From the NCBI GenBank assembly GCA_016291435.1, contig JAEEXH010000010.1, positions 1 through 54,636 of the forward strand: a stretch of 54,636 nt of DNA, given 5' to 3'. A program made the translations under genes and the position numbers. Positions 945-32,548 of the stretch are shown one piece after another (within the stretch, counting starts at the first letter, position 1; each line of letters begins with the position of its first letter). The DNA is from Oscillospiraceae bacterium (GTDB lineage: Bacteria; Bacillota; Clostridia; Oscillospirales; Ruminococcaceae). Under the pieces are notes generated by a model. The model did not search any database. It was not told where the DNA came from and saw only the letters and a program-made list of their open reading frames with translations.

Positions 945-2600
945 ATGTTACCAAAGCAGACCGAATATAAAGTTGGGATGTATATGCGCCTTTCAAAGGA
1001 TGATGAAAGAAGCGGTGAATCCCTTTCAATAGAAAACCAGAGAAAGATACTCACGGAGTACATTACACAGCAGGGCTGGACGCTCTATGATGAGTATGTG
1101 GACGACGGCATTAGCGGAACCACGTTCGAGAGACCGGGTGTCCAGCGTTTACTCGACGATGCCAAGACGGGAAGAATAAACCTGATACTCTGCAAGGATT
1201 TGAGCAGATTTGGTCGTAATTATATCCAGGTAGGACAGTACACAGATTACATATTCCCAATGTATAACATTCGCTTCATCGCTCTCACGGACAACGTGGA
1301 TACTGCAAATTCCGCAAGTTCGGGAATGGACATGATGCCGATAATGAATGTCTTTAACGAGTGGCACAGCGCCAACACGTCCAAGAAGATCAGGGCGGTT
1401 GTTGAATCGGGAGCAAAGTCGGGCAAGTATAGGACGACATTTGCGTCCTACGGGTATTTCAAGGGTGATGATGAAAAGCGTACACCTGTGATTGATCCCG
1501 TTGCCGCTGCTGTTGTACGCCGTATCTTTGAAATGAGGGCGGCAGGCTATAACATGAAGCGTATCGCCCAAGTGCTGAATGATGAGGGTATCCTCACTCC
1601 CGATGATTACAGATACAGCTTGCTGAACAAAGAAACGCCACATTACAGTCTTCACCTGTGGAGCGTGGAAACGATAAAGCGTTTACTTCGTAATCAAATT
1701 TACATTGGCAACCTTGCCCAGCTCCGCACGACTACGGTTAGCTACAAAAATCACAAGGTTATCCGCAAGGAAGAAGATGAATGGGTGGTCGTTGAAAACA
1801 ACCACGAGCCTATTATCAGCAGAGAATTGTGGGATAAAGTTCGCGAGATCGAAGCATCTGTAAGTACTGGTAAGATGACAAAGCAAGGCATAACACTTCC
1901 GCTGACAGGTCTGTGCTATTGTGCGGACTGCGGTTCAAAGTTCAAGCAGGCTGGTTCTGCTAAGCGTAAAAGCACCGTTACGGGGTATTCCTGCGGACAG
2001 TATGCGAGATTTGGCAAGAAATACTGCTCCTCACATTTCATAACTGCACACGCACTTCAGGATATTGTTCTTGCCGACATCAAGCGCCAGATCGACTTTG
2101 TGATGAACGATGATAAGGCAAGAGAAAAGTATCTTGCAAGAAAGCAAGGGCTTTATACAGAACAGCACAGCGGTGACAAGAAAAAGCTCCGTGACATCAA
2201 CAAACGTATCGCAGAGCTTGACAGGCTGATCGCAAGTGTGTATGAGGACAAGGTTACAGGTAAGGTGCCCGAAGATATGGCGTTCACATTGCTCGACAAG
2301 TATCAGACCGAAAAGAAGTCTTTGCAGTCTGAGAGCGATGAAATGCAGAAGCACACTGATATGGCAAAGCAGGACGAAGCCGATGTGGACGAATATATCC
2401 GTCGCTTGAAAAGCTATGCAGGTGCTGAGGAGCTTACAAGACAGATGGCGCTTGATCTGATCGAGTATATAACGATAGATGAAAATCCGAGAAAGAAAGC
2501 TATCCCTCGTGATATTCACATCTACTACAAGCTGATCGACAAGCCCCTGAAAAACAAAAATAATGCCCTCGCTGAACAAGCAGGGGCAATCAAAAAATGA
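945..2600 (+). CDS. Large serine recombinase (TnpX-like site-specific integrase)
   Basis: 551 aa; excises and integrates the mobile element through a covalent phosphoserine intermediate. The resolvase domain (about 8-155) has the catalytic Ser17 in 'YMRLSKDD' and conserved arginines such as Arg15 and the 'DLSRFGRN' stretch (85-92). It is followed by a recombinase domain (about 165-300), a zinc ribbon (Cys326, Cys329, Cys350, Cys361), a coiled-coil (about 405-475) and a C-terminal segment like DUF4368 of clostridial transposon recombinases. The ATG at 945 is preferred over the in-frame upstream start at 828 because GGAGGAAAGGAG lies just ahead of it and the promoter lies between the two. The AT-richer composition marks foreign DNA. 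The gene appears intact. Confidence 0.93.
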   Translation: MLPKQTEYKVGMYMRLSKDDERSGESLSIENQRKILTEYITQQGWTLYDEYVDDGISGTTFERPGVQRLLDDAKTGRINLILCKDLSRFGRNYIQVGQYTDYIFPMYNIRFIALTDNVDTANSASSGMDMMPIMNVFNEWHSANTSKKIRAVVESGAKSGKYRTTFASYGYFKGDDEKRTPVIDPVAAAVVRRIFEMRAAGYNMKRIAQVLNDEGILTPDDYRYSLLNKETPHYSLHLWSVETIKRLLRNQIYIGNLAQLRTTTVSYKNHKVIRKEEDEWVVVENNHEPIISRELWDKVREIEASVSTGKMTKQGITLPLTGLCYCADCGSKFKQAGSAKRKSTVTGYSCGQYARFGKKYCSSHFITAHALQDIVLADIKRQIDFVMNDDKAREKYLARKQGLYTEQHSGDKKKLRDINKRIAELDRLIASVYEDKVTGKVPEDMAFTLLDKYQTEKKSLQSESDEMQKHTDMAKQDEADVDEYIRRLKSYAGAEELTRQMALDLIEYITIDENPRKKAIPRDIHIYYKLIDKPLKNKNNALAEQAGAIKK

Positions 2601-2661
2601 CCGATTGATACTCAAAAGCTATTTTGTTGGATTGAAGATAAAAAACTACCCATAGTTCACG

Positions 2662-2713
2662 CTTACATTCGTAAAAACATATCATATAATGGAAATACAG
2701 ACCGCATGCGGTC
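2662..2713 (+). promoter_or_regulatory. Promoter and 14-bp palindrome ahead of the first dockerin gene
   Basis: CTTACA (2662-2667), 17 bases, TATAAT (2685-2690). Ten bases after the -10 is a perfect palindrome GACCGCATGCGGTC (2700-2713), which falls near the transcript start and could be an operator. The boundary between the AT-rich mobile element and the GC-rich host DNA lies close by, so part of a recombination junction is an alternative. Confidence 0.5.
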
Positions 2714-2743
2714 GCAGAAAAAACAAAATCGGGGGATTTTATT

Positions 2744-5305
2744 ATGAAAAAGAGAAGCATCCTGCGGCGGGTCACCGCCGTCTGCACAGGACTCATGATG
2801 CTCGCTGGCATGCCCGTATCTGCCGATACCGGGCAGCGGGCGGTCGATGCGTTTTCAACGGAGATCGGGCTCGCGGCAAATCTTTACACCGTCGCCGGCA
2901 GCGGCTATGCCGATCATGCGGCGCTGCAATGGGCGACCACGCTGGACGCAGGGCAGTTTACGCTCTACCGCTCGGCGGGCTCCGACAGCAATTTTGTCCC
3001 GGTCTATACCGGCACGGGAACCTCATGGTCGGATAACGACATGCAGCCGGGCACGGAGTATTTCTATCAGCTCGCCGTGACAGGCAAGGACGGCACGCAG
3101 TATTCTTCGGTGAAGTCGCTTACGCCCTGTGCGGTCCCCGCGGGTCTAGACAGCTATGACAACCAGAAGGGGAGCAGCCTGCAATACGAGACCGGCGGCT
3201 ACAAGGTCGGCAATACCTATTACAGCTATGCGCTGCGCTCGCACGGAAACGGCGATATTTATCTTGAGGAGACCACATCCTCCGACGGCAGGCGCTTCGG
3301 CAATGCGCGCAATGCGGCGGATTCCTCGCAGAACAGCGCCCTTGCAAGCTGCAAGATCGAATCGGTACACATCGAATATCTTGCGCATGCAAACAAGGTC
3401 GTTGTCTGGGCGCACTGGGAGCAGCCCTCGGGCTATGCAGACGGCAAAGCGCTTGTCATCACCGGCACCCCGGGCGGCACATTCACCGTGCATCATGTCT
3501 ACAATCCGCTCGGCATTCAGGTGCGCGATATGGCGATCTTCTTTGACGATGACGCCGCACACACCGGCTATCTGATTGCGGCGGCAAACAAAGAGGGACA
3601 GGGCGCCAACGCGACCATCTATATTTTCAGGATGACCGCGGATTACAGCGATGTGACGGAGGTCGTCAAGACGCTGCACGAAAATCAGTACCGCGAATTC
3701 CCGAACATGATCAAGCGGAACGGCTATTATTTCCTCTTTACCTCGCAGGCGGCAGGCTGGTATCCGAGCAGCGGCGCCTACACCGTGACGGACAACATTG
3801 CAGGCGAGTGGAGCGGGCTGCGCAGCATCGGCAATTCCTCGACCTTCTCCTCGCAGTCCGGCTGGATCGTGAATTTGCAGGACAGGAATTATCTGATGCA
3901 CGCTTACCGCTGGCTGCGGGCATCCTCGACCTCGGGCACAACGCTCTGCCCGCTCTATTTTGACAACAGCTTTGCGTTTTATGACTACTGCCCGTCCTTC
4001 CTTTACAGCACAAAAACGGGCGACCTCTATCCCGTGCAGGAGGGCGAGCTGCTCTCGCAGAACAAGCCTGCATCTGCCTCGCTTGCGGCAAAGGCGGAGA
4101 CCTCCGCGGCGTCGGCAGTGGACGGCTCCTATCAATCCTCGTTCACGGCGATCGGCGATTACAAAAAGTGGCCCTTCTATCTGCAAATTGATCTGGAGCA
4201 GGTCTGTGCGCTCTCGAATATCCAGACCTCGTGGTATATCTGCAAGGGCTCTGAGGGCTATTACACCTACACAGTGGAGGGCAGCACGGACGGCGTCACA
4301 TGGAAAACGCTGCTCGATCACACCGACAAGAACAGCGACATCGTCAACAGCACCTACGGCTTCAACAGCGACATGCTTACAGGTGAGGCACGCTATGTGC
4401 GGCTGAATGTGCAGAATGCGACGCTGCAAAACAATCCGAACAACAACTGGTACACGCCGACCGTTTACGAGGTCAAGGTGTTCGGCAAGGTGCTCCGTGC
4501 AGCGGAAGCACCGCTTCCGGCAGTCGCCTATGACTTTGACAGCGTGTCCGGCGGCAGAGTGCCCGACATCACCGGGAACGGCGGAGACCTGACGCTTTCG
4601 GGCGGCGCGGCACTCGCGCAGGATGCGGAAAAGGGCAGTGTCCTGAAGCTCACGGGCGATGCGGCAGATTTTGCCGTGCTCCCGGCGGGTCTGCTGGACG
4701 GCACCCGGGAATACACCGTTGTGATGGATGCAAAATCGGATTCTGACGGCGATTTCTTCACCTTTGCGACCGGGCAGAGCCGCGACAAATACGCCTTCTT
4801 CAAGATCGCGCAGGATCATTTCCGCTTTGAGACAACGACCGACACATGGCGCGGAGAGAGCGGCATGCGGCATGATCTTGACGGCGCGAAGTGGCACCGC
4901 TATGTGCTCTCCGTGAGCGGCGGCAGCGCAAGGCTCTATGTGGACGGCGTGCTCGCCGCAGAGACCACCGAGCTCACGACCGGCCCTGCGGATATGGGCA
5001 GCGGACAGCAGGCGTATTTCGGCAAATCCTTCTATGAGGAGGATGCAGGATTCAGCGGGCTGATCGACAATGCGGCAGTTTACCGCCGCGCACTGACAGA
5101 ATCGGAGATCGCGGCGCTCAGCGGCAGCGGCAGGCTCCGCGGCGATGTCAATGCAGACGGGTCATTCGATCTTGCGGATGCCGTGATGATGCAGCGCTTC
5201 CTGCTCGCAGACGGTACGCTCACTGACTGGCAGGCAGGCGATTTTGACGAAAACGGCAGGATCAATGCCGTCGACCTCACGCAGATGAAGCGTGCGCTCC
5301 TGTGA
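2744..5305 (+). CDS. Secreted dockerin protein with GH43-like, F5/8-type and LamG modules
   Basis: 853 aa. A signal peptide (about 1-27, ending VSA) is followed by a fibronectin-III-like region (about 40-125), a five-bladed propeller resembling GH43_24/34 exo-beta-1,3-galactanases (about 135-430), an F5/8 type C (CBM32-like) module (about 440-580), a LamG/concanavalin fold (about 590-785) and a C-terminal dockerin (about 800-853) with calcium loops 'DVNADGSFDLAD' and 'DFDENGRINAVD'. In the propeller, 'VRDMAIFFDDD' and 'REFPNMIKRNGYYFL' match the usual GH43_24 landmarks, the Glu of REFP being the likely acid. The role inferred is cellulosomal attack on arabinogalactan-type side chains. GGGGGATTT precedes the ATG. 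Substrate is inference; the modular reading is solid. Confidence 0.85.
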   Translation: MKKRSILRRVTAVCTGLMMLAGMPVSADTGQRAVDAFSTEIGLAANLYTVAGSGYADHAALQWATTLDAGQFTLYRSAGSDSNFVPVYTGTGTSWSDNDMQPGTEYFYQLAVTGKDGTQYSSVKSLTPCAVPAGLDSYDNQKGSSLQYETGGYKVGNTYYSYALRSHGNGDIYLEETTSSDGRRFGNARNAADSSQNSALASCKIESVHIEYLAHANKVVVWAHWEQPSGYADGKALVITGTPGGTFTVHHVYNPLGIQVRDMAIFFDDDAAHTGYLIAAANKEGQGANATIYIFRMTADYSDVTEVVKTLHENQYREFPNMIKRNGYYFLFTSQAAGWYPSSGAYTVTDNIAGEWSGLRSIGNSSTFSSQSGWIVNLQDRNYLMHAYRWLRASSTSGTTLCPLYFDNSFAFYDYCPSFLYSTKTGDLYPVQEGELLSQNKPASASLAAKAETSAASAVDGSYQSSFTAIGDYKKWPFYLQIDLEQVCALSNIQTSWYICKGSEGYYTYTVEGSTDGVTWKTLLDHTDKNSDIVNSTYGFNSDMLTGEARYVRLNVQNATLQNNPNNNWYTPTVYEVKVFGKVLRAAEAPLPAVAYDFDSVSGGRVPDITGNGGDLTLSGGAALAQDAEKGSVLKLTGDAADFAVLPAGLLDGTREYTVVMDAKSDSDGDFFTFATGQSRDKYAFFKIAQDHFRFETTTDTWRGESGMRHDLDGAKWHRYVLSVSGGSARLYVDGVLAAETTELTTGPADMGSGQQAYFGKSFYEEDAGFSGLIDNAAVYRRALTESEIAALSGSGRLRGDVNADGSFDLADAVMMQRFLLADGTLTDWQAGDFDENGRINAVDLTQMKRALL

Positions 5306-22478: not shown

Positions 22479-25430
22479 TTATCCGACCTGCACGGTCGCA
22501 GTCACGGTGCGGCTGCCGGCGGAGAGAAATTCATCCTGCCGCAGATTGATCTGCGGGACGCCGTTCACATCGAAATATACCTGTCGGATATGCGTGTGGC
22601 GGCAGGGATCATAGAGCGGATCGCTCGCATAGGTGCCGCATTCCTTCCTGTCATGCGACTCCGGGCGTGCGTGATAGACAATCAGCAGATTGCCGGATTC
22701 ATCCGTGACAAAGGAATTGTGACCGGGTCCCTTTTCACCGGTGAGATCGGAGGTGCTGAGCACAGGCGACTTCTGCTTTGTCCAGCTCGCGGTGTCCATG
22801 AGGTTTGCATCTGCGTCGGCTTCCATCCGTCCGACGCAGTATTCCGAGCCTGTGCCCGATGCCGAGAAGAACACATAGATCTTCCCGTTTGCCTTGAGCA
22901 CGGCAGCGCCCTCATTCACGCGGTGATTGACCATTTCCCAGTCATATTCCGGCTTCGTGAGCAGAATCGGCTGCGAGATGAGCTTCCACGGCGCAGCAGG
23001 GTCGATCTCTGCCATGAAGAGCGAGGAATCGCCCTTGATCTCCGCCCAGATGACATAGTGATGCCCGTTCTGCTCAAAATAGGTCATGTCGAGCGAGAAG
23101 CTGCGGAAGGAGGATGTGTCGCCCGATGCCGCCTGCATCTGCCCGCGCTCTGTCCAGGTGCCGGTGAAGGGATCGCCGCTGCACTCCAGCACATAGGGTC
23201 TGATTGCCCAGATGTCGGAGCTTGCGCCTGCCGCGAAGAAGATATACCACTTCCCGCCGATTTTGTGCATCTCCGGCGCCCAGATATGCTTTGCCATGAT
23301 GCCGCTGCCGTGCGCCTTCCAGACGGTCTTCTCCTCCGCAGCGGCGAGCCCCGCAACGGTGTTGCTGCGCCGCAGAATGATGCGGTCATAGCCTTTATTC
23401 ACGCTGCCGAATGCGGGATAGGATGCGGTGAAATAATAGTATCCGTCGCCGCCGTCGGTCACAAAGGGGTCGGCGCGCTGTTCAATGAAGGGATCCTTGT
23501 AATCGCTGCCCTGCACGCTGCCTGTGACGGTGTAGGTGCCGGGCTGCGCGGTGTCGATCTGCGAAAGGGCTGCGGCATCCCATGTGACGGGCAGCTCCAT
23601 TCTGCCGCCGTCGCTGTATCGCGCTGTGACGGTCTCCGGCAGGCTGACAGTGCCGCCTGTCTGCACATGCAAGGCCGGCTGATCGACCGCAGTTTGATAG
23701 GTGTGCAGACCCGCAGAGGGGAAGGCGCTCACCAGTGCGTCATACTGTGCGCCGGTGATCGGGATGACATAGCCGTGGCGCGGGGTGAAATCGAAGCTGT
23801 AATCGGCGCGGCTGACAGTGCGGAAGTTCTCGAGATCGGTTGTCTCCTGCATGACATAATACCCGTTTCCGTAGGCGTCGGACATGAGCAGCCATTTGTT
23901 CTCGCCGTTCAGCTTGTAGATGTTCGGTCCCTCGACGCCGAGACTGCCCTCCGAGATCTTATGTATTTCCTTGTAGGGACCCGATGCATGCTCTGCTTCT
24001 GCGAGGAAAATGCCCTTTGTCGTCTCATCCTTATAATACATATAGTATTTGCCGTTCTCGAAGATGATATCCGAGTCGATTGCATCGTGACCGCTTGACG
24101 GTGCGAGCAGCAGCGCCGGTGTCGTGTCGAGCTTCATGAGGTCGCGGCTGTAGGCGTAATACATGATCGTGCGGTCGTCTGTGCCGGGCACGCGTGCCGC
24201 GAAATAGATCATGTAAGAGCCTTTTTCGGGATCGTAGATCGCCTGCGGAGCCCATGCGCGGTCGCAGTTCATCATGTTCGGATACTGATTCGCAATTTTG
24301 ATCTGCGATTCATCGAACCAGTGAATGAGATCGGTCGATTTTGCGCTGATCAGATCACGGTTGCTGTTCCAGCCGAGCGAAGACTTCATATCGGTCGCGA
24401 GCAGATGCCAGAGACCGTCCTCCCCCTTGAAGATATAGGGGTCGCGCAGGCATTTTGTGCCGACGGACGACTGCCAGACCGCTCTGCCGCCGTTCAGTGC
24501 GCTGAAATGATAGCCGTCGCGGCTGACCGCATAGGAGAGCCGCTCCTGATCGGGATTGTTGCCGAGAAAGTAGGCGAAGAGATAGGCGGTCGGCTCCGCA
24601 TCTGCCGCCGGAACCTGCACCGTATCCGTGCGGAAGCCGTCACGCCCGCGCAGGAGATAATCGCAGAGGGCTCTCGCATCCTCTGCGTTCACAGTCGGTG
24701 TATCGCCCGCGCTTTCGGTGTCTCCGCAGTCTGCGATATAGGCACAGACCGGGTCAAATCCGGAAAGCAGACCGCGCTTTAAGAGCGTAAGGTCGGCAGC
24801 GTTCAGCTTCCCGTTGAAATCGAGATCACCGCGCAGGAAGGTCAGTGCGCCGTCTGCGGGCTGAATGTAGAATTTCTGTCCCTCGCCGCCCCAGTAGTCC
24901 CACTGGTCGATGTTCGCGCCGTTCTCATAGCTGATGTCATAGACATCGAGCGCGGCAGAGCGGCTGCACTTTGCACGGATACAGAATGCGTCGTCCGCTT
25001 TGATGAGCGAGAAGAGCTGTGCATCGCTGCCGGTGAAGGTGCTGAGCGCGATGTTGTTGCCGTTGGTGTTGTCGCCGCCCTCGACGGTGAGTGCCAGCGA
25101 CGGATTCTCCGCGGAGAGAATCGCGCAGTAACCGTCCTGCTTCACGATTTTCCAGCGCTGTGCGGCGGTGCCGAGTGCCTCCCACTGCTGCACATTGCCG
25201 TCTTCGGCGGCGGTGATGAATTTGCCGCTCAGCCGCACCATGATGCGGTATTCCGCGCCGCTGACGACCGTCTGCCCGGCATCCGCGTATTCCGCAGAGA
25301 CGGCATTTGCCGCCTGAGCCGCGGGCGCTGCTGCAAAGACAGCCTGTTCTGTGTGCTGCGGTATTGCCGAGATCCCCGTGCTTGCCGTCACCGCTGCGAG
25401 CAGTGCTGCAAGCTGTTTCCCTTTTTTCAT
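22479..25430 (-). CDS. Secreted cellulosomal enzyme with two GH43 modules, ricin-type CBM and internal dockerin
   Basis: 983 aa. Signal peptide (about 1-40); ricin-B/CBM13-like trefoil (about 55-190, 'SLALTVEGGDNTNGNNIALS'); dockerin inside the chain (about 200-262, loops 'DLDFNGKLNAAD' and 'DTESAGDTPTVNAED'); GH43 module 1 (about 280-610; base Asp330 in 'LRDPYIF', acid region 'SLGVEGPNIY'); a Big_4-like strand domain (about 625-665, 'PGTYTVTGSV'); GH43 module 2 (about 670-975; 'RADPFVTDGGDGYYYFTAS', 'KHIWAPEMHKI', 'NEGAAVLK'). GH43 enzymes invert arabinofuranoside, xyloside or galactan bonds; two modules suggest debranching plus backbone or two linkages. GAGGGAAA precedes the ATG at 25430; the longer in-frame start at 25571 lies upstream of the promoter. 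Confidence 0.9.
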   Translation of the reverse strand: MKKGKQLAALLAAVTASTGISAIPQHTEQAVFAAAPAAQAANAVSAEYADAGQTVVSGAEYRIMVRLSGKFITAAEDGNVQQWEALGTAAQRWKIVKQDGYCAILSAENPSLALTVEGGDNTNGNNIALSTFTGSDAQLFSLIKADDAFCIRAKCSRSAALDVYDISYENGANIDQWDYWGGEGQKFYIQPADGALTFLRGDLDFNGKLNAADLTLLKRGLLSGFDPVCAYIADCGDTESAGDTPTVNAEDARALCDYLLRGRDGFRTDTVQVPAADAEPTAYLFAYFLGNNPDQERLSYAVSRDGYHFSALNGGRAVWQSSVGTKCLRDPYIFKGEDGLWHLLATDMKSSLGWNSNRDLISAKSTDLIHWFDESQIKIANQYPNMMNCDRAWAPQAIYDPEKGSYMIYFAARVPGTDDRTIMYYAYSRDLMKLDTTPALLLAPSSGHDAIDSDIIFENGKYYMYYKDETTKGIFLAEAEHASGPYKEIHKISEGSLGVEGPNIYKLNGENKWLLMSDAYGNGYYVMQETTDLENFRTVSRADYSFDFTPRHGYVIPITGAQYDALVSAFPSAGLHTYQTAVDQPALHVQTGGTVSLPETVTARYSDGGRMELPVTWDAAALSQIDTAQPGTYTVTGSVQGSDYKDPFIEQRADPFVTDGGDGYYYFTASYPAFGSVNKGYDRIILRRSNTVAGLAAAEEKTVWKAHGSGIMAKHIWAPEMHKIGGKWYIFFAAGASSDIWAIRPYVLECSGDPFTGTWTERGQMQAASGDTSSFRSFSLDMTYFEQNGHHYVIWAEIKGDSSLFMAEIDPAAPWKLISQPILLTKPEYDWEMVNHRVNEGAAVLKANGKIYVFFSASGTGSEYCVGRMEADADANLMDTASWTKQKSPVLSTSDLTGEKGPGHNSFVTDESGNLLIVYHARPESHDRKECGTYASDPLYDPCRHTHIRQVYFDVNGVPQINLRQDEFLSAGSRTVTATVQVG

Positions 25431-25473
25431 ATGTTTCCCTCGATTCTGCCCGTTCCCTGCGGGCTTTTTGCTT

Positions 25474-25502
25474 ATTATAACACAGCATGCGGCGGGATAC
25501 AA
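25474..25502 (-). promoter_or_regulatory. Promoter of the tandem-GH43 gene
   Basis: On the minus strand TTGTAT (25502-25497), 17 bases, TATAAT (25479-25474). It is only about 45 bases downstream of the 3' end of the structured RNA gene. Confidence 0.65.
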
Positions 25503-25547
25503 TAGCAAAAAGACAACTTCTCCATACATTTTGTATCTGAATTGCGC

Positions 25548-25963
25548 AAAAAACGGCACAGGACGAAACATCCTGTGCCGTTTGGCTTTGCAGTGACAAG
25601 CAATCCGATGGCAGACGCAGCACGCATGAAAAAATCATATCTCCATGTGGATAAAAGGAAGCCATCTCTGCTCACAGTGAGCAGTTTCGTCCTCCCGGAC
25701 GATATGCGGGCTGCACGCTTGTCGGTTCATAAAGGGGATACAGGCCATCTTGTGACAGACTGCATTCGGGGGGTCATAATAATCATTCATGATAAAAGGA
25801 AGTCACATGAAAGCCGGAGCTCTCATCCCGAAGCAACGCCTGTATCGCTTTGGCAAGCCATCTGACAGCAGACGGATTTCTGCGCTTTCTATCCCGGGCG
25901 GGATAGCAGTTACGAGCTGTAAAAGGATGCTGTCAATTCATTGCGCAGATCCACGCTTGCCTT
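25548..25963 (-). ncRNA. Large structured non-coding RNA, about 415 nt, family not recognised
   Basis: No coding frame with a ribosome site spans it, yet it has a consensus promoter and a strong terminator. Distant perfect complements nest into separate domains: GGCAAGC (25852-25858) with GCTTGCC (25955-25961), enclosing GACAGCA (25864-25870) with TGCTGTC (25929-25935) and a TATCCC/GGGATA hairpin; GATACAGGC (25737-25745) with GCCTGTATC (25838-25846), enclosing TGTGAC/GTCACA and an ATCAT/ATGAT hairpin; GACAAGC (25595-25601) with GCTTGTC (25717-25723), enclosing GATGGC/GCCATC. Plus-strand words GATAAAAGGAAG (25653 and 25791 areas) and a TGTAAAAGGATG variant, and GCCATCT three times, recur, so the RNA shows UCCUUUUA motifs that could pair with ribosome-binding sites. 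It lacks the RNase P P4 motif and tmRNA acceptor features. Independent regulatory RNA is inferred. Confidence 0.78.
25552..25582 (-). terminator. Terminator of the structured RNA
   Basis: ACGGCACAGGA (25553-25563) pairs perfectly with TCCTGTGCCGT (25571-25581). On the minus strand it is followed by TTTTTT. This is one of the strongest intrinsic terminators in the window. Confidence 0.9.
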
Positions 25964-25969
25964 ACGCTC

Positions 25970-25998
25970 AGTATAACACGGATTTCTCCGTTTGTCAA
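25970..25998 (-). promoter_or_regulatory. Consensus promoter of the structured RNA
   Basis: On the minus strand TTGACA (25998-25993), 17 bases, TATACT (25975-25970) with an extended TG. The -35 overlaps the TGA stop of the TerD-like gene, so the RNA has its own start directly behind that gene. Confidence 0.85.
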
Positions 25999-28001
25999 CC
26001 CTCAAGGAAGAAATTGCTGTCGATGAGGCTCAGCTCATGCTCCGCGGAGGGCTTGCCCATCACGAGCACGACATCCGCTTCCGCCGCGCTTCCGACAAGC
26101 TCCGCGTGCTGTGCCTGCATGAGAAGATCGAGGTATTCGCGCAGGGAGAAACCGCCGTTCCGCGGGCAGGCGGAATAGAAGTCACCGTCGATCTTCGGCT
26201 TGCCGTCAAAGACGAGCAGACGGTTCTGCACATCAATGTAGCCGTAGTTCATCTGATGGGACTTGCCGGTGAGATTATGCGTAAAGAAGCAGTTTTTCGG
26301 ATCGTAGAGCTTGACCGCAGCGCCGGTTTTGGAGACTGCCATGATGCCGACAAAGCACTCGTCGATCTCGCCGAATGTCTCGTATCCGGCATAGAGATTG
26401 ATATTGAGGCTGACGGTGCGCAGCAGCTTCTTTCCGCCTTCGAGATCGAGGTCGATGTATTCCGCGGCATCGGAATGGGTGATGTCGCCGCTGAAGACCA
26501 GCTCGCCGCCCTTGAATGCCGCGTTCCAGCCGACGGTGATCGCTCTGCCGTCCGCAGTGAATGCCGCTGCGTGCAGATCGACATCCACGCGCTTTTCATC
26601 GTTCCAGTAGACGAAGAAGCGGATGCAGCGCACGTTGTCGGGGATGCGGTATGCGAGCCCGGAGCGGATATAGCCGCCCTCCTCCGACTTGTCACCGATG
26701 CGGAGCTCGGAATGCGCAAGGTCGAAGTCCGGCATATTGAGGTACACCTTTTTGCCGCGCAGTGCGGTCTCATTTGCCGCGAGCCGTCTTTGCAGCAGAT
26801 AGCGGGTGATGAGCCGCAGATTTCTTGCCTCCTCGAAGCGTTCCGGCGGCAGGGAATCTGTCTCCGGGCGCGAGAAGAACGAGACCAGACCTGCGAGCGT
26901 CTGCGGGCTGAGGGCATCTGCGTGATCTTCCAGCTTGTCGCAGACAGCAAGCGGGGCATAGCCGTTCCGCAGCAGATAGGTCATGTGACGGAGCATCATG
27001 CCGGGGCGCTGCGCGTAGGCATCGAGCACCTCCGGGCTGCCCTGTGCGACCATCTCCTTGACCTTCGACTCCCACGAACGGAGCGTGCCGTTCCGGAGCG
27101 CCGCGACTGCATCGGCATGTGCCTTGCTGCGCGAATAGGAGTTGAAGTCGATGAACTTGAGCATCAGCAGCGTGCGCTCGCGCTTCTTGCCCGAGAGGAT
27201 GAGGTTCTCGCGGAAATCGCCGGCAGAGTAGCTTTCGAGCAGCTTCACGAGCAGACGCTTCTGCGATGTGCGGAAGTGATAATTTGCCCGCGTGAGGGAA
27301 AAGTCCATGCACTTCCAGACATCGCCCGTGTGCTGGCAGAGCGCGTGCAGGCATGTGAGCTTCTGCGCGGAGGTAAGCGCCTCTGCCGCAAAGACCGCAT
27401 GGAACAGCATCAGCATATTCTGCTTGAATGTGACCCTGATGCCGGCAAGCGTCTCCGGGGAGAGCTCCTTTGCGCACACCGCGATGATTCTGCACTCCTT
27501 GTCCGTCATGCGCTCGGTCTTGCCGAGGATGCGCTCTGCGGGGCAAAGATACTGCTCGCTGATGTCGATGAGACCGAGCACCTTTGCTTCGAGCAGGGTA
27601 TCATCGGACTCCGTCTTTTCGGTGTCCTGCATCCCGGGCAGCCAGCCGCGGGTGACAGGTACGCCCGTGAGATCTTCGATGCCGTAGGTCGAGAAATAGT
27701 GCAGGAGCTGATGGAAGCGGAACACGGCTTCATCGAGATCCATGACCTGCGACGGGAAATCGGGGTACATCGGCTTTGCCTTGACATCGCCGGCATATTT
27801 CCGCACGCGCTCCGTGAGCGTATCCGCATCCGCAGACTGTGCCAGTGTCACAACATCGCCCGCGGAAAGGGTATACCCGATCGCACGCAGCTCTTCGTTG
27901 ACCGTCATCGCCTTGACGAGGTTCTCCTCGGTGAGCGGTGCGGTATTCTTCGCGACTGCGATCAGACGCAGCTCTGAAAACAGCAGCATTCCGTAATCCA
28001 T
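25995..28001 (-). CDS. TerD-domain protein, MXAN_6230/SCO0854-like
   Basis: 668 aa, no signal peptide. The N-terminal about 400 residues are helical and of unknown role. The C-terminal part (about 425-560) reads as a TerD-like calcium-binding fold ('SGLAYRIPDNVRCIRFFVYWNDE', 'GDITHSDAAEYIDLDLEGGKK'), followed by a tail of about 100 residues. The layout fits the MXAN_6230/SCO0854 group of TerD-related proteins, linked loosely to tellurite/stress systems, but without the RING part named in that group. GGAGGGA precedes the ATG. It has its own TTGACA/TATATT promoter and no other ter genes nearby, so it stands alone. Function is not established. Confidence 0.7.
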   Translation of the reverse strand: MDYGMLLFSELRLIAVAKNTAPLTEENLVKAMTVNEELRAIGYTLSAGDVVTLAQSADADTLTERVRKYAGDVKAKPMYPDFPSQVMDLDEAVFRFHQLLHYFSTYGIEDLTGVPVTRGWLPGMQDTEKTESDDTLLEAKVLGLIDISEQYLCPAERILGKTERMTDKECRIIAVCAKELSPETLAGIRVTFKQNMLMLFHAVFAAEALTSAQKLTCLHALCQHTGDVWKCMDFSLTRANYHFRTSQKRLLVKLLESYSAGDFRENLILSGKKRERTLLMLKFIDFNSYSRSKAHADAVAALRNGTLRSWESKVKEMVAQGSPEVLDAYAQRPGMMLRHMTYLLRNGYAPLAVCDKLEDHADALSPQTLAGLVSFFSRPETDSLPPERFEEARNLRLITRYLLQRRLAANETALRGKKVYLNMPDFDLAHSELRIGDKSEEGGYIRSGLAYRIPDNVRCIRFFVYWNDEKRVDVDLHAAAFTADGRAITVGWNAAFKGGELVFSGDITHSDAAEYIDLDLEGGKKLLRTVSLNINLYAGYETFGEIDECFVGIMAVSKTGAAVKLYDPKNCFFTHNLTGKSHQMNYGYIDVQNRLLVFDGKPKIDGDFYSACPRNGGFSLREYLDLLMQAQHAELVGSAAEADVVLVMGKPSAEHELSLIDSNFFLEG

Positions 28002-28176: not shown

Positions 28177-29364
28177 TCAGAGGATCGTCACGCGCCTTGA
28201 CATCTGCCGGATCAGATCATAGCCGTCCCAGATGAGTGCAAAGTCCATCGTCTTTCCGATCGGGACAATGCGGTCGATGCCGAAGGGTCTGCCCTTCTCA
28301 AGAAACGCCGCAAGATCCTCCTTTTTGACGCCGTAATAGGAGAGCGTCTGGCAGCGTGTGCCGCAGACGGGCAGAATCTCGCAGAGGTCGGAGATCTCCT
28401 TCTCGAAGAAGAAGCCGCTGTTAAATTTGAAATCGGGCAGATCGCTGTCAAGCTGCTCGGGGGTCACGCGCATCACATAGAGATCCTCGCTTTTTGTGAG
28501 CGACATCGGCTTCTGTGCGGCAGCCTTGCAGAGCGCCTGCAGCTTCCCGACCGCCTGCACCGGCCGGAGCTTATAGTTTTCCCGCACGGTGCGGTGCACT
28601 CTTTCCCAGAAATCCGCCTTCGCCTCTGCGGTGTGCGCTCCCTGCCAGAAGACAAAGCGCGGGGAGGTGCAGGCGTTCTGATCGGTGTAATAGGTATCGT
28701 TGTAGAAATTCTGCACGATGAGATCCTTGTTCTCCGCGCAGAGATACGCATCTGCGTCGATTACGGCAGCGGAGTGCCGGTCTGCGAAGGTGATCTCACC
28801 GGCTCTCGGCGGGAGCGGGGAGCGGCGGATCTCCGCGACAGTTGCGTCGCCGCCCCAGATGACGCGCACGGCGCAGCGTGCGGAGAGCATGTCGGTGATC
28901 TCCTTGTCGGGCGGGAATTTCACGAAGCAGACATAGGGCGCGAGGGCGCTGTGCTGGTTTGCCAGGAGCGTGCGGATTGCGTCACAGATGACTGTGACCT
29001 GCGGGAAATCCTTTGCCGGGAGCCGCACGATATTGGCGTTTCCGGCGAGCAGCCCCGCAGCAAAGCTGAATGCAAAGTTCACCGGGACATTGGAGGGGGT
29101 GCTGTGCAGGACAGTGCCCTTGCCGAAGCGCTCCGCAAGATCGTCATATTTATCCTTCTCCTGCATGAGCGCCGCCTTCCGGCACCAGAAGCCGAAGGTC
29201 GCAATATCGGGGTAGGTGCGATCTGTGCGCAGCATGGCGGAAAGATCGCTGAAAAAGCTGAGCACCGCCTCATCGAAGGGTCTGAGCGGGCGGAGCGACG
29301 CCATCGCAGAGAGCCTCTCCGCATCGCCGATCACATATTGCAGATCACTGAAATTTTGCGGCAT
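28177..29364 (-). CDS. LuxC-like acyl reductase
   Basis: 395 aa. LuxC proteins reduce an activated acyl group to an aldehyde with NADPH through an acyl-cysteine intermediate. The aldehyde-dehydrogenase-like fold is suggested by 'STPSNVPVNFAFSFAAGLLAGNA' (nucleotide-binding region, about 88-110) and the catalytic Cys232 in 'QNACTSPR'. Length is somewhat short of the about 480 aa of light-organ LuxC. The start at 29364 lies 20 bases inside the LuxE-like gene, with GGGGGTG upstream; a start 30 bases earlier exists. It is last of seven genes in the operon. The acyl donor could be a LuxE-bound or carrier-bound acid from the same operon; chain identity is not visible. Confidence 0.85.
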   Translation of the reverse strand: MPQNFSDLQYVIGDAERLSAMASLRPLRPFDEAVLSFFSDLSAMLRTDRTYPDIATFGFWCRKAALMQEKDKYDDLAERFGKGTVLHSTPSNVPVNFAFSFAAGLLAGNANIVRLPAKDFPQVTVICDAIRTLLANQHSALAPYVCFVKFPPDKEITDMLSARCAVRVIWGGDATVAEIRRSPLPPRAGEITFADRHSAAVIDADAYLCAENKDLIVQNFYNDTYYTDQNACTSPRFVFWQGAHTAEAKADFWERVHRTVRENYKLRPVQAVGKLQALCKAAAQKPMSLTKSEDLYVMRVTPEQLDSDLPDFKFNSGFFFEKEISDLCEILPVCGTRCQTLSYYGVKKEDLAAFLEKGRPFGIDRIVPIGKTMDFALIWDGYDLIRQMSRRVTIL

Positions 29365-30436
29365 AGGTATCACTGCACCCCCTGATCTCGGCATTTTTCA
29401 GTCTGCCGTTGATTTTGAAATACTTGCCCTTTCTTCCGCAGGGGCAGTCATCCTCGCCGAGAATCACGCCCTCGTCCTCCGTCAGCAGGCTGTGCCCGGG
29501 GTAGGACTCCGGAATCGCCGAAACAACCTGTATGATGCCGGTTTCTCCGACGGCGCAGGGCGAAAGATCTGCCGTGCGCCTTGTGATCACATCGGAGAAG
29601 ATGCTCGCGTGGAGATGCCCGCATTCGCATTCCATATAGATGCAGCCGGTCTGCTCGACCATGCCGTAGTAATCGTGGACAGCGCGGATGCCGCAGACAT
29701 CGTGCAGCTTTTCGCGGAAGGCGTCATGGCTCACCGCCTCTGAGATGAGCTTTTTCCAGCCGCCGCCGTGAATGAGAATGCCGTTTGAGAGATCGAAGCA
29801 GATGCCCTCCTCTTTCAGCCGCAGCAGCTCCTTATAAAAATGCTGCCAGATCATGAAGGTGAAGCCGAAGAGCAGGATCCGCTGCCCGCTGTGCTGTGCG
29901 AGAAATTCCCGCAGCGCCTCCGTATTCAGCTTCATGTCATCGTCGAGCGCATAGATCTTCTTTGCGCCGAATATGGAGAAGCCGAGGATCCCGGCGCCGC
30001 GTGCGGAGAACATCGCCCTGTCGCGCACAACGCCCGGGCAGTCGAGAATGATCATCGGCATGCGCCCGGAGCCCGTGAACGACGAAACAATCTTCACCAT
30101 CGTTTTCTGCTGGTTGGCGGCAGTCACGCGGTCGAGGAAAATGCGGCTCACAGCCTGTCCGGTCGTGCCCGAGGAGGTCATGGTCTTGACGATTTCCTCC
30201 TGCGGGACAGAGCGCAGTGCCGTCTCCTTGAACATCCGCACCGGCAGCATCGGCACATCCGTCACAGACTGCACCGCATCCGGGTCAAAGCCGATGCAGC
30301 TGAGGATATTGGCATATTCGGGGCAGCGCGCCCTGTGAAGCAGCGTCAGCTCCTTCAGGCGCGCCGTCAGCAGTCTGTCCTTCTCCGCTTTGCCCAGCGA
30401 ATAGGGCGGGATATTCAGCATTTCGTCATAGGTCAT
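29345..30436 (-). CDS. LuxE-like acyl-protein synthetase
   Basis: 363 aa. LuxE activates a carboxylic acid with ATP and hands it to LuxC. The ANL-type phosphate loop 'MTSSGTTGQAVSR' (about 86-98), 'VHDYYGMVEQTGCIYMEC' and 'GKYFKINGRLKNAEIRG' follow the LuxE/PaaK-like pattern. A cluster of cysteines ('MECECGH', 'DDCPCGRKG') suggests a metal site as in many PaaK-like members. The start overlaps the thioesterase stop (ATGA) and the end overlaps LuxC by 20 bases, so the two products are made together. Similar LuxE-LuxC-ACP sets occur in surface polysaccharide clusters of other bacteria. Confidence 0.88.
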   Translation of the reverse strand: MTYDEMLNIPPYSLGKAEKDRLLTARLKELTLLHRARCPEYANILSCIGFDPDAVQSVTDVPMLPVRMFKETALRSVPQEEIVKTMTSSGTTGQAVSRIFLDRVTAANQQKTMVKIVSSFTGSGRMPMIILDCPGVVRDRAMFSARGAGILGFSIFGAKKIYALDDDMKLNTEALREFLAQHSGQRILLFGFTFMIWQHFYKELLRLKEEGICFDLSNGILIHGGGWKKLISEAVSHDAFREKLHDVCGIRAVHDYYGMVEQTGCIYMECECGHLHASIFSDVITRRTADLSPCAVGETGIIQVVSAIPESYPGHSLLTEDEGVILGEDDCPCGRKGKYFKINGRLKNAEIRGCSDTYAAKFQ

Positions 30437-31149
30437 TGCCGCACCTCGCTCTCCGGCAGCAGGATCCCGCGGATCATGTCAGCCATTTCCTTGTGATGTT
30501 CCTTGATAAAGAAATGATTGCCGGTGAATGCGGCAAAGCTGCATCCGCCGGTGAAGATGCTGCGCCATTTTTCCATCGTGCGCAGCGGGGTATCGCTTTC
30601 AGAATAGAAGATCACCGCACGGACAGGCGCTTCGAGCCCCGGCTCCCGGAAGCTGTATCGGCTGATGAGCGTGTAGTCTGTGCGGTAGAGCGGAAGATAC
30701 ATCCGCCAGAAGCTGCGGTTCCCGAGCAGTGTCTCCGGAACCGTGCCGAAGGCAACCGTCCGCGCTCTGACCAGTTCATCGGGGATTTCGCTGCCCTGAA
30801 AAGCGGCGAATTCCGGCGAAATATCCGGTGCATGCGCCGCAAGAAAAACGCATTCGGGCAGCGGCATGCCGCACGATAGGATGCGCCGCAGCACTTCTGT
30901 CACCGTGATCGTGCCCATGCTGTATCCGAAGAGGGCATAGCGCCCGCCGTTCCACTGCTCCTGCACGGTGCGGAACATATCGTCCGCAAGCGTGTCAAAA
31001 TCGGAAAGCAGCGGCTCTCTGTGCCGCTTGCCGTGGCCGGGATAATCCGGAGCGGAAAGCTCCAGCTCCGGCAGATCATCCGCGATCGTGCGGAAGAAAT
31101 TGCCTGTTCCGCCCGCATATGTGAAGCAGAACACCTGCGGCTTATTCAT
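30433..31149 (-). CDS. Type II thioesterase (alpha/beta hydrolase)
   Basis: 238 aa. Looks like GrsT/RifR-type editing thioesterases: N-terminal 'VFCFTYAGGTGNFFR', oxyanion region, nucleophile Ser77 in 'GYSMG', and a C-terminal His in 'TGNHFF'. Such enzymes release wrong or stalled groups from carrier proteins, or free the product. The ATG at 31149 overlaps the ligase stop by 8 bases and gives the family's usual length; the longer frame upstream is non-homologous. Here the carrier is likely the 80-aa ACP of the operon. Confidence 0.88.
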   Translation of the reverse strand: MNKPQVFCFTYAGGTGNFFRTIADDLPELELSAPDYPGHGKRHREPLLSDFDTLADDMFRTVQEQWNGGRYALFGYSMGTITVTEVLRRILSCGMPLPECVFLAAHAPDISPEFAAFQGSEIPDELVRARTVAFGTVPETLLGNRSFWRMYLPLYRTDYTLISRYSFREPGLEAPVRAVIFYSESDTPLRTMEKWRSIFTGGCSFAAFTGNHFFIKEHHKEMADMIRGILLPESEVRQ

Positions 31150-32548
31150 AGTATTTCTGAAGCTCCCTGTAAAGCGTCTTCCCGGCATCGTTCTTCGGGA
31201 TCGCATCAATGACCGTGACGCGGAACGCCGCCGGATTGAGGCGCGTCTTCCGGACCACGAATTCGCGCACCGGCTCTGCGAAGGCAGCATCGGTGACAAA
31301 GAGCTCCATATGGTCATCCTTGCCGGCGCAGGCAGCCTCAATCTGAAATTCACTGCGGATCATGCGTTCCGTTTCGTCAAGGTTGACACGGTTGCCGTAG
31401 ATCTTGAGAAAGCGCTTTTTCCGCCCGACGATGTAGTAATAGCCGTCCTCGTCAAACTGTGCCATATCGCCGGTTTCGAGGATGCCGCCGCGTTCATCGC
31501 CCCGGCTGAGGTCATCGCCGCATTCCGCATAGCCGAGCGTGACATTTTTGCCTTCGTAGACCAGCTCGCCGGTCGTGTGCGGCGCCGTGACCGTGCTGCC
31601 GTCCGCGCCGATCAGGCGGAATTTGCCGCCCGGGATCGCGATGCCCATTGAGCCTTTTTTGGCGGCTGCCATTTCAGGCGGCAGAAAGCCCATGCGCGCA
31701 GTCGCCTCACACTGCCCGTACATCACAACGAACTGCCTGCCGGTCTCCTCTGCGTAGGCTGCAAATTTCTCATGCAGCTCGGGCAGGATCTTTCCGCCTG
31801 CCTGCGTCATGGTGCGCAGGGAGGGGAGCTGCATGCGGTAAAACCGCAGCCGGTCGAGCATCTCATAGGTATAGGGCACGCCGCCGAAGGAGGTGGCGCC
31901 CGCTTCCCTGAAGAAGCTCCAGAATTCCTTTTGCATGAGCCCCTTCTCAGTCATGAGGATTGCCGCGCCGACCAGCAGATGGGAGTTGATGATCGAGAGC
32001 CCGTAGGTATAGTTCATCGGCAGTGTCGTGATCGGGCGCTCGTCGGCGCTGAGCTTCAGATACTGCACGATCGACTGCGCATTGTCGAGAATATTCGCAT
32101 AGGACTGCCGCACGAATTTCGGCGAGCCCGTCGAGCCCGAGGTCGTGAGCAGAAGCCCCAGCTCATCATAGAGCGGATATTCCTTCGGAAAGTCCGTTTT
32201 CAGCAGGGCATAGCCGTATGCCGCATACACGGGCTCTGTTCCGGGGAACTGCGCAGCCTGCTCCTCCGGGCACCAGATATATGCCGGCGCATAGACCGAG
32301 AGCAGGTTTTCCAGCAGCGCTTCGTCGAGCGTGCTGCTGAGCATGATCGGCGGGATCCGGCCGTTCAGGCAGGCGACATAGCCGATCAGCGAACCGATTG
32401 TATTGCGGCAGAGTGAAAACACGAGACAGCGCCTGCCGATCTTTTCCGCAAGCGCCTCCGTTTCCGCTTTCAGCTCCGCATAGGTGAGCACAGTCCCGCT
32501 GCTCTCGATCACGGCGGGGCTGTCACCGTATTCAGCAAGATTCCACAT
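31142..32548 (-). CDS. AMP-forming acyl/aminoacyl ligase (ANL superfamily)
   Basis: 468 aa. Motifs of adenylating enzymes are in place: 'LLLTTSGSTGSPKFV' (about 131-145), 'YGQCEAT' (about 285), 'ETGDMAQFDEDGYYYIVGRKKRFLKIYG' landmarks and the C-terminal catalytic Lys in 'KNDAGKTLYREL'. It would activate a small carboxylic acid and load it onto the neighbouring carrier protein encoded 3 bases upstream, much as DltA does with DltC. Shorter than NRPS A domains and with no attached carrier or condensation domain. Substrate pocket not predictable by eye: fatty, hydroxy- or amino acid are all open. Confidence 0.9.
   Translation of the reverse strand: MWNLAEYGDSPAVIESSGTVLTYAELKAETEALAEKIGRRCLVFSLCRNTIGSLIGYVACLNGRIPPIMLSSTLDEALLENLLSVYAPAYIWCPEEQAAQFPGTEPVYAAYGYALLKTDFPKEYPLYDELGLLLTTSGSTGSPKFVRQSYANILDNAQSIVQYLKLSADERPITTLPMNYTYGLSIINSHLLVGAAILMTEKGLMQKEFWSFFREAGATSFGGVPYTYEMLDRLRFYRMQLPSLRTMTQAGGKILPELHEKFAAYAEETGRQFVVMYGQCEATARMGFLPPEMAAAKKGSMGIAIPGGKFRLIGADGSTVTAPHTTGELVYEGKNVTLGYAECGDDLSRGDERGGILETGDMAQFDEDGYYYIVGRKKRFLKIYGNRVNLDETERMIRSEFQIEAACAGKDDHMELFVTDAAFAEPVREFVVRKTRLNPAAFRVTVIDAIPKNDAGKTLYRELQKYYE

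Follow-up and report, generated by a model that had tools for sequence, protein, structure and literature searches.

The window, by which we mean the whole 54,636-nucleotide stretch of DNA analysed here, contains on its minus strand a consensus promoter and a terminator that together enclose an RNA gene of ~416 nt (25963-25548), which a first-pass annotation had read as an unannotated structured RNA gene. The locus raises the question of what this stretch encodes and whether its product has a partner. The answer we reach is an RNA built of one repeated module, with a pseudoknot in each copy, and the same module is found with the same protein gene in many genomes; none of these three points was part of the earlier reading.

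Promoter and terminator signals enclose three copies of one module

The two transcription signals described in the first pass are present in the sequence. The promoter (25970-25998) consists of TTGACA at 25998-25993, a 17-bp spacer and TATACT at 25975-25970, its -35 box overlapping the stop codon of the upstream gene for a 668-residue protein, and the intrinsic terminator (25548-25582) consists of a hairpin at 25580-25554 followed by six Ts at 25553-25548. Judging from the letters, the predicted transcript start is the first base of module A (described below) or its neighbour. When folded, the promoter–terminator stretch (418 nt) reached -157 kcal/mol, compared with a shuffle mean of -125.3 kcal/mol (sd 5.8; z = -5.5), and was more stable than 100 of 100 dinucleotide shuffles. 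No Rfam 15 family matched the window at the gathering threshold. At E ≤ 10, the sole match in a 601-base region was a chance one to the terminator on the opposite strand, and Rfam identified two tRNAs and nothing else in 10 relative loci. The signals, the absence of an Rfam match, and the homologues beside TerD-like genes and covarying helices described below support the reading as an unannotated structured RNA gene. A protein-coding reading was dropped: the stretch holds short ORFs only, and its homologues in other loci stand clear of the gene and have covarying RNA helices.

Three tandem copies of one module, all on the minus strand, fill the RNA. Module A (25851-25962; 60.0 bits in cmsearch) carries the core AUCCUUUUA at 25928-25920 and the helices P1 (GGCAAGC/GCTTGCC), P2 (TCTGCGC/GCGCAGA) and P3 (TGACAGC/GCTGTCA). 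Module B (25738-25845; 82.3 bits), with the core UUCCUUUUA at 25801-25793, pairs 25845-25838 with 25745-25738 in P1 and provides the 5′ arms of P2 (UUCGGG, 25832-25827) and P3 (GUGAC, 25806-25802). In module C (25594-25724; 61.6 bits) the core UUCCUUUUA recurs at 25660-25652, and the helices include P1 (GACAAGC/GCTTGTC) and P3 (GATGGC/GCCATC). The three domains that the first-pass annotation had delineated are real as copies of this module, and the distant complements used to define them most likely correspond to P1 and parts of P2 and P3, an assignment made for the group rather than complement by complement. The recurring words CUUCCUUUUAUC and CAUCCUUUUACA proved to be the conserved core of each module. 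The word AGATGGC, reported three times, marks a conserved GAUN-P1′ junction in two of its copies; the third copy falls in module C, where it serves as the 5′ arm of P3 and its recurrence is a coincidence.

Module architecture and covariation

Searching 30 genomes of the genus at the DNA level recovered diverged relatives of the window RNA, and the eight loci inspected contained repeats of one unit, seven of them visibly adjoining the same gene and all eight placed there by further scans. Each module is 74-194 nt long, usually about 90-130 nt, and begins with the 5′ arms of P1, P2 and P3, in that order, followed by a nine-base core, a variable stretch and a 3′ half composed of the P2 3′ arm, a short linker, the P3 3′ arm, GAUN and the P1 3′ arm. 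Because the arms of P2 and P3 interleave, these two helices form a pseudoknot, and nested MFE folds cannot display both together. The unpaired core lies outside P1, P2 and P3 and has the consensus NU(C/A)CUU(U/C)U(A/G). Among 120 distinct modules, U2, C4, U5, U6 and U8 were invariant, while position 3 was C in 81 and A in 39, position 7 was U in 110 and C in 10, and position 9 was A in 100, G in 15 and C or U in 5. The resulting forms include UCCUUUU, UACUUUU, UCCUUCU and, in six modules, CUCCUUUUA.

Compensatory change in P1 and P3 was followed in two alignments. The first, A1, comprised 28 modules from nine loci; 93.5% of its P1/P3 cells were paired, 12 of 15 pairs had undergone change in both partners and a one-base shift of one arm reduced pairing to 20-31%, in a test that leans towards structure because most of the 28 modules had been picked by P1 and P3 pairing. 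Further pair types in A1 did not rise above shuffles (385 of 500 were equally high). The second, A4, comprised the 120 distinct modules, fitted to P1/P3, and showed 93.2% of cells paired, double changes at 13 of 15 pairs and a covariation score of 0.646 compared with 0.257 in shuffles, while its count of double-change pairs did not beat shuffles (69/500). Overall, two of the five P1/P3 measures fail to beat shuffles. P2, which was absent from the model and the selection of both alignments, provides an independent test of the structure. With G-U pairs counted, a P2 helix of 6 bp or more was found in the expected window in 113 of the 120 modules, compared with ~39 of 120 when the 3′ arms were taken from other modules, and its mean score was 19.7 versus 10.8 for mis-paired arms (sd 0.28, 300 permutations).

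Within the genus, modules occupying the same array position (positions assigned by hand) were 62.8% identical between species, while modules at different positions were 46.3% identical, or 46.2% within a locus. The higher same-position identity indicates that the array positions are old; they may also be specialised.

Tight linkage and co-occurrence with a TerD-like gene, and copies away from it

The gene just upstream of the window RNA (25995-28001, minus strand) encodes a 668-residue protein with an N-terminal helical solenoid (residues ~1-411) and a C-terminal TerD-like domain (residues ~412-668). Scanning GTDB 220, one genome for each species, with the protein alignment yielded 73 loci. 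Many have source names that refer to the rumen or gut, and the hosts are Ruminococcus/Oscillospiraceae, Lachnospiraceae, Erysipelotrichaceae, Mogibacterium, Christensenellaceae and others. Sarcina sp. DSM 11001 (L188), named as a strain from a culture collection, carries both the protein gene and the RNA, the latter as one upstream module. Searching 802 kb of gene neighbourhoods on both strands (search R1) returned 121 module matches at E ≤ 0.1 in 62 of the 73 loci, and none of the 121 lay on the antisense strand, inside the gene or more than 650 nt from it. A further search (R2) added five loci, all with upstream modules. Homologous intergenic regions beside TerD-like genes thus carry the same module, on the sense strand and at most 650 nt away, in 67 of 73 loci. 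At L089 (G332:C142), which at first appeared unlinked, the gene stops 240 nt short of a contig end and the RNA begins 151 nt from one, so that the two may be neighbours.

The RNA-less loci are of several kinds. L192 and L199 are cut on the 5′ side of the gene, the contig of L149 ends 240 nt downstream of the gene and holds no RNA, the match in L200 spans residues 418-666 only, and L138 and L154, whose flanks are intact, lack a linked RNA. Downstream of the gene, where the RNA is missing, L138 (7136-7300) and L149 (7205-7444) contain similar sequence with TTAAGGCAACACCGCAC, which may be a mobile repeat that inserted where the RNA would stand.

The RNA lies upstream of the gene in 37 of the 67 loci and downstream in 30. 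Upstream loci mostly have a single module (34/37), and the module closest to the gene precedes it by about 20-190 nt; downstream loci have one to five (29 of 30 counted). In a quick tree of 69 proteins the position of the RNA changes twice, strongly supported branches forcing only one change, and the RNA stays beside the gene despite these changes. Across the 73 loci, the RNA is the only widely common neighbour of the gene, judged against the 22 largest neighbour clusters listed. A common operon or defence context was rejected, as the largest other cluster listed occurs in 18 of 73 loci, in mixed positions; its longest member is ABC transporter-like by eye.

Transcription signals accompany the module in its relatives. 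In 46 of 62 loci the 30 nt preceding the first module contain a TATAAT box, allowing one mismatch, compared with 12% of random positions and 3-14 of 62 positions shifted by 60-200 nt. In 34 of these 46 loci the box lay 5-9 nt before the module, so that transcription is expected to start at the first bases of P1. Of the 30 downstream loci, 26 have a terminator-like hairpin behind the last module, against a rate of 1.9% in shuffled sequence. Between module and gene, a terminator was detected in 4 of the 37 upstream loci and not in the other 33, by a criterion that misses long loops (L159 looks like a terminator by eye). Since most upstream loci have no such terminator, upstream modules may be leaders; they may also be released by processing or by P1 with U runs behind it.

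RNA and protein co-occur across genomes as well. The protein was encoded in 11 of 30 genomes of the genus, and the RNA in the same 11, ten of them recognised in one search and G024 in another; in a family sample, the protein was found in 15 of 396 genomes and the RNA in all 15 (13 by the first scan, and G024 and G373 by the R2 search), counts that are not independent because the genomes are related. The family, class and order RNA scans used strict filters, with 9-12 candidates scored per genome, so that absence in them is soft. Under these filters, the RNA appeared in 1 of 291 class and 1 of 295 order genomes, in both cases the window's own genome, and the laxer R2 search covered 10 of the 396 family genomes.

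Copies also exist away from the gene. Five genomes (G017, G299, G410, G423 and G433) have extra unlinked copies of one to four modules on other contigs, each in addition to a linked copy and the protein. A promoter stands directly in front of the unlinked copies in the first four of these genomes; that of G433 has no obvious promoter. G373 encodes the protein, and its RNA is a two-module array on another contig only; we infer that locus L154 belongs to this genome.

Several weak matches were set aside. In two genomes without the protein, one match ran across a gene (G022:C2, 26.7 bits in R1) and the other lay inside a gene (G376:C16, 22.8 bits; 16.8 bits and E 0.85 in R2). We attribute both to chance, together with a match within or across a long ORF (G017:C139, 23.7 bits), a partial 16.6-bit match on the opposite strand in L008/L053 and an 18.9-bit match (E 0.52) in G165. 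Separately, a 3.4-kb contig in the assembly of another species (G007:C24, L006) matched the window with 100% identity along the whole 461-base query. Given this identity and the diverged copy that G007 has of its own, the contig is probably misbinned, and it was left out of the reasoning, its record L150 still being counted among the 73 loci. An IMG/VR contig (IMGVR_UViG_3300021400_004534, L215) encodes, at 2297-4668, the protein (61% identity) with three modules downstream, and may come from the flank of a prophage or be bacterial.

A putative protein partner and its alternatives

An AlphaFold2 model of the 668-residue protein (mean pLDDT 85.5, pTM 0.83) comprises a helical N-domain and a beta-rich C-domain, the latter matching the TerD structures 2kxt and 3ibz in Foldseek with probability 1.00. 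The NCBIfam profile NF041916 (MXAN_6230/SCO0854) resembles the TerD region of the window protein (70.1 bits, strongest over residues 452-596) and, in 26 of 35 N-domains at E ≤ 1 (best 1.7e-9), a portion of the solenoid, but the score is far below the cut-off of 600 and the matches span only parts of the 842-position profile. A literature search by the locus tags MXAN_6230 and SCO0854 returned no paper. Pfam found no family above cut-off for the window protein and no credible one among its relatives (20 full proteins and 35 N-domains; best 25 of 36 N-domain families), PDB sequence searches gave nothing significant (a single match, E 1.4), and the one PADLOC match (E 0.031, in 1 of 20 proteins) was not credible. 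The window N-domain has a net charge of -3, without the positive charge often found in RNA-binding proteins.

The nearest analogue, as we see it, is Ro60 (Rsr) with its Y RNA. Bacterial Rsr and Y RNA share one operon, as described in PMC7790460, and here too a small non-coding RNA is encoded beside the gene of an alpha-helical-repeat protein. The structural likeness is weak: Ro60 entries ranked 19-20 by E-value in Foldseek for the full model (probability 0.98, E 0.04, TM about 0.3) and 40 for the N-domain alone (E 0.49, probability 0.94), where the match had the top probability and the top query-normalised TM-score (0.34) among the 50 matches listed, and other helical proteins outrank Ro60 by E-value. 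TROVE homology by sequence was rejected, as TROVE was absent from the window protein and among the Pfam families listed for 20 full proteins and 35 N-domains, and hhalign against a profile of four Firmicutes TROVE proteins gave a probability of 0.3%; a PF05731 search of the window's own genome found no match. Unlike Ro60, of which the vWA domain is a feature, the partner protein has a TerD domain in its place, and unlike Y RNA, the modules are pseudoknotted and often tandem; the window RNA had no Rfam match to a Y RNA or tRNA-like fold. Given the weak Foldseek match and the absence of a TROVE profile match, we treat Ro60 as an analogy that stops short of family membership.

Proteins with a TerD domain occur widely in stress responses and phage conflict, and what they do at the molecular level is unclear. 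This background is treated in part in PMC7824862. Co-occurrence with one protein points to that protein as the partner of the RNA, and we consider it reasonably likely that the RNA belongs to a new non-coding class that partners the solenoid-TerD protein in an RNP acting in trans; the module structure, the promoter and terminator signals, the linkage and co-occurrence and the unlinked copies are shown computationally, and transcription, direct binding and RNP function we infer. The locus would make a stable non-coding RNA of ~416 nt with three pseudoknotted modules, a dedicated partner of the protein encoded just upstream. The protein probably recognises the P1/P2/P3 pseudoknot and the unpaired core of each module, and multi-module arrays would load several protein copies per RNA. 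By analogy with Ro60/Y RNA, the RNP is probably a trans-acting particle for RNA handling or stress, in which the RNA may occupy, gate or scaffold an RNA-binding solenoid. A single upstream module without a clear terminator may double as a leader, through which the protein would autoregulate its mRNA. We hold more tentatively, at a little short of an even chance, a narrower version in which one to five tandem pseudoknot modules are the obligate guide, gate or scaffold of the RNP, making it an independent counterpart of Ro60/Y RNA in anaerobic gut Firmicutes.

Other readings were weighed against this RNP. The module could be a cis-regulatory leader of the TerD-like gene, riboswitch-like or autoregulatory, that was later copied downstream in Ruminococcus, as the 37 upstream loci would suggest with their mostly single modules close before the gene, many of them directly preceded by a -10 box and most with no terminator detected. 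A leader would, however, always be found in the 5′ leader, and in 30 of 67 loci the modules are downstream, mostly with a promoter-like box in front and a terminator behind (26/30), while copies with promoters exist on other contigs; we regard this origin as unlikely. A base-pairing small RNA whose UCCUUUU cores would bind ribosome-binding sites, a mode of action suggested in the first pass, we hold to be very improbable. The cores do lie outside the helices, and CUCCUUUUA (6/120) resembles the 16S anti-Shine-Dalgarno sequence, but the core varies at positions 3 and 7, where changes would weaken such pairing, and the co-occurrence with one protein is left unexplained.

A type III toxin-antitoxin-like pair, in which the pseudoknot RNA would neutralise a toxic or defence solenoid-TerD protein, perhaps one that cuts the array into modules, is also improbable. 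In the ToxI, CptI and TenpI systems tandem structured RNA repeats adjoin one protein gene, and in CptIN they lie upstream of the toxin gene, as described in PMC4627078. The present locus shares the tandem pseudoknots beside one protein gene, though 34 of 37 upstream loci are single-module, and is a stand-alone two-part unit in variable surroundings, with a patchy distribution (15/396 genomes) and one viral-collection contig bearing both parts. However, no ToxN/CptN/TenpN-type endoribonuclease was among the matches listed from Pfam, PADLOC and Foldseek against the PDB. ToxI-type repeats are ~35-45 nt long, so that the module is about two to three times longer, and the RNA often has one module and often lies downstream of the gene or on another contig. 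The STAXI motif (RF01728) differs in its hosts, Enterobacteriales, and in its neighbours, which are SSB, topoisomerase and integrase genes; its model, assumed to be in Rfam release 15, matched neither the window nor the 10 relative loci.

Since no known family tested fits, we regard this pseudoknotted, modular RNA without an Rfam match as a new class; in how it works it could still turn out to be a variation on Ro60/Y RNA or on type III systems. No description of the RNA was among the papers that the literature searches listed, and in the main text of PMC8040213 the strings tellur, TerD, Ruminococc, pseudoknot and tandem are all absent. If the RNP is real, the TerD stress domain would gain an RNA cofactor; one TerD branch at least would then be known to act as an RNP, and the co-occurring RNA would offer a direct handle on its function. 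Copy number (1-5), movable position and unlinked copies provide a natural series for studying RNA-protein co-evolution.

Upstream of the partner gene, at 28177-31353 (minus strand), a LuxC-like reductase, a LuxE-like synthetase and a thioesterase are encoded in a row, perhaps as part of a fatty-acid or secondary-metabolite cluster; none of these families stood out by eye among the 22 neighbour clusters listed. Downstream of the RNA, at 22479-25571 (minus strand), lies an ORF for a GH43 protein that also carries ricin-B-like and Big_4 domains, its dockerin match staying below cut-off; the protein probably starts near 25430, past the terminator, instead of at the first start codon of the ORF.
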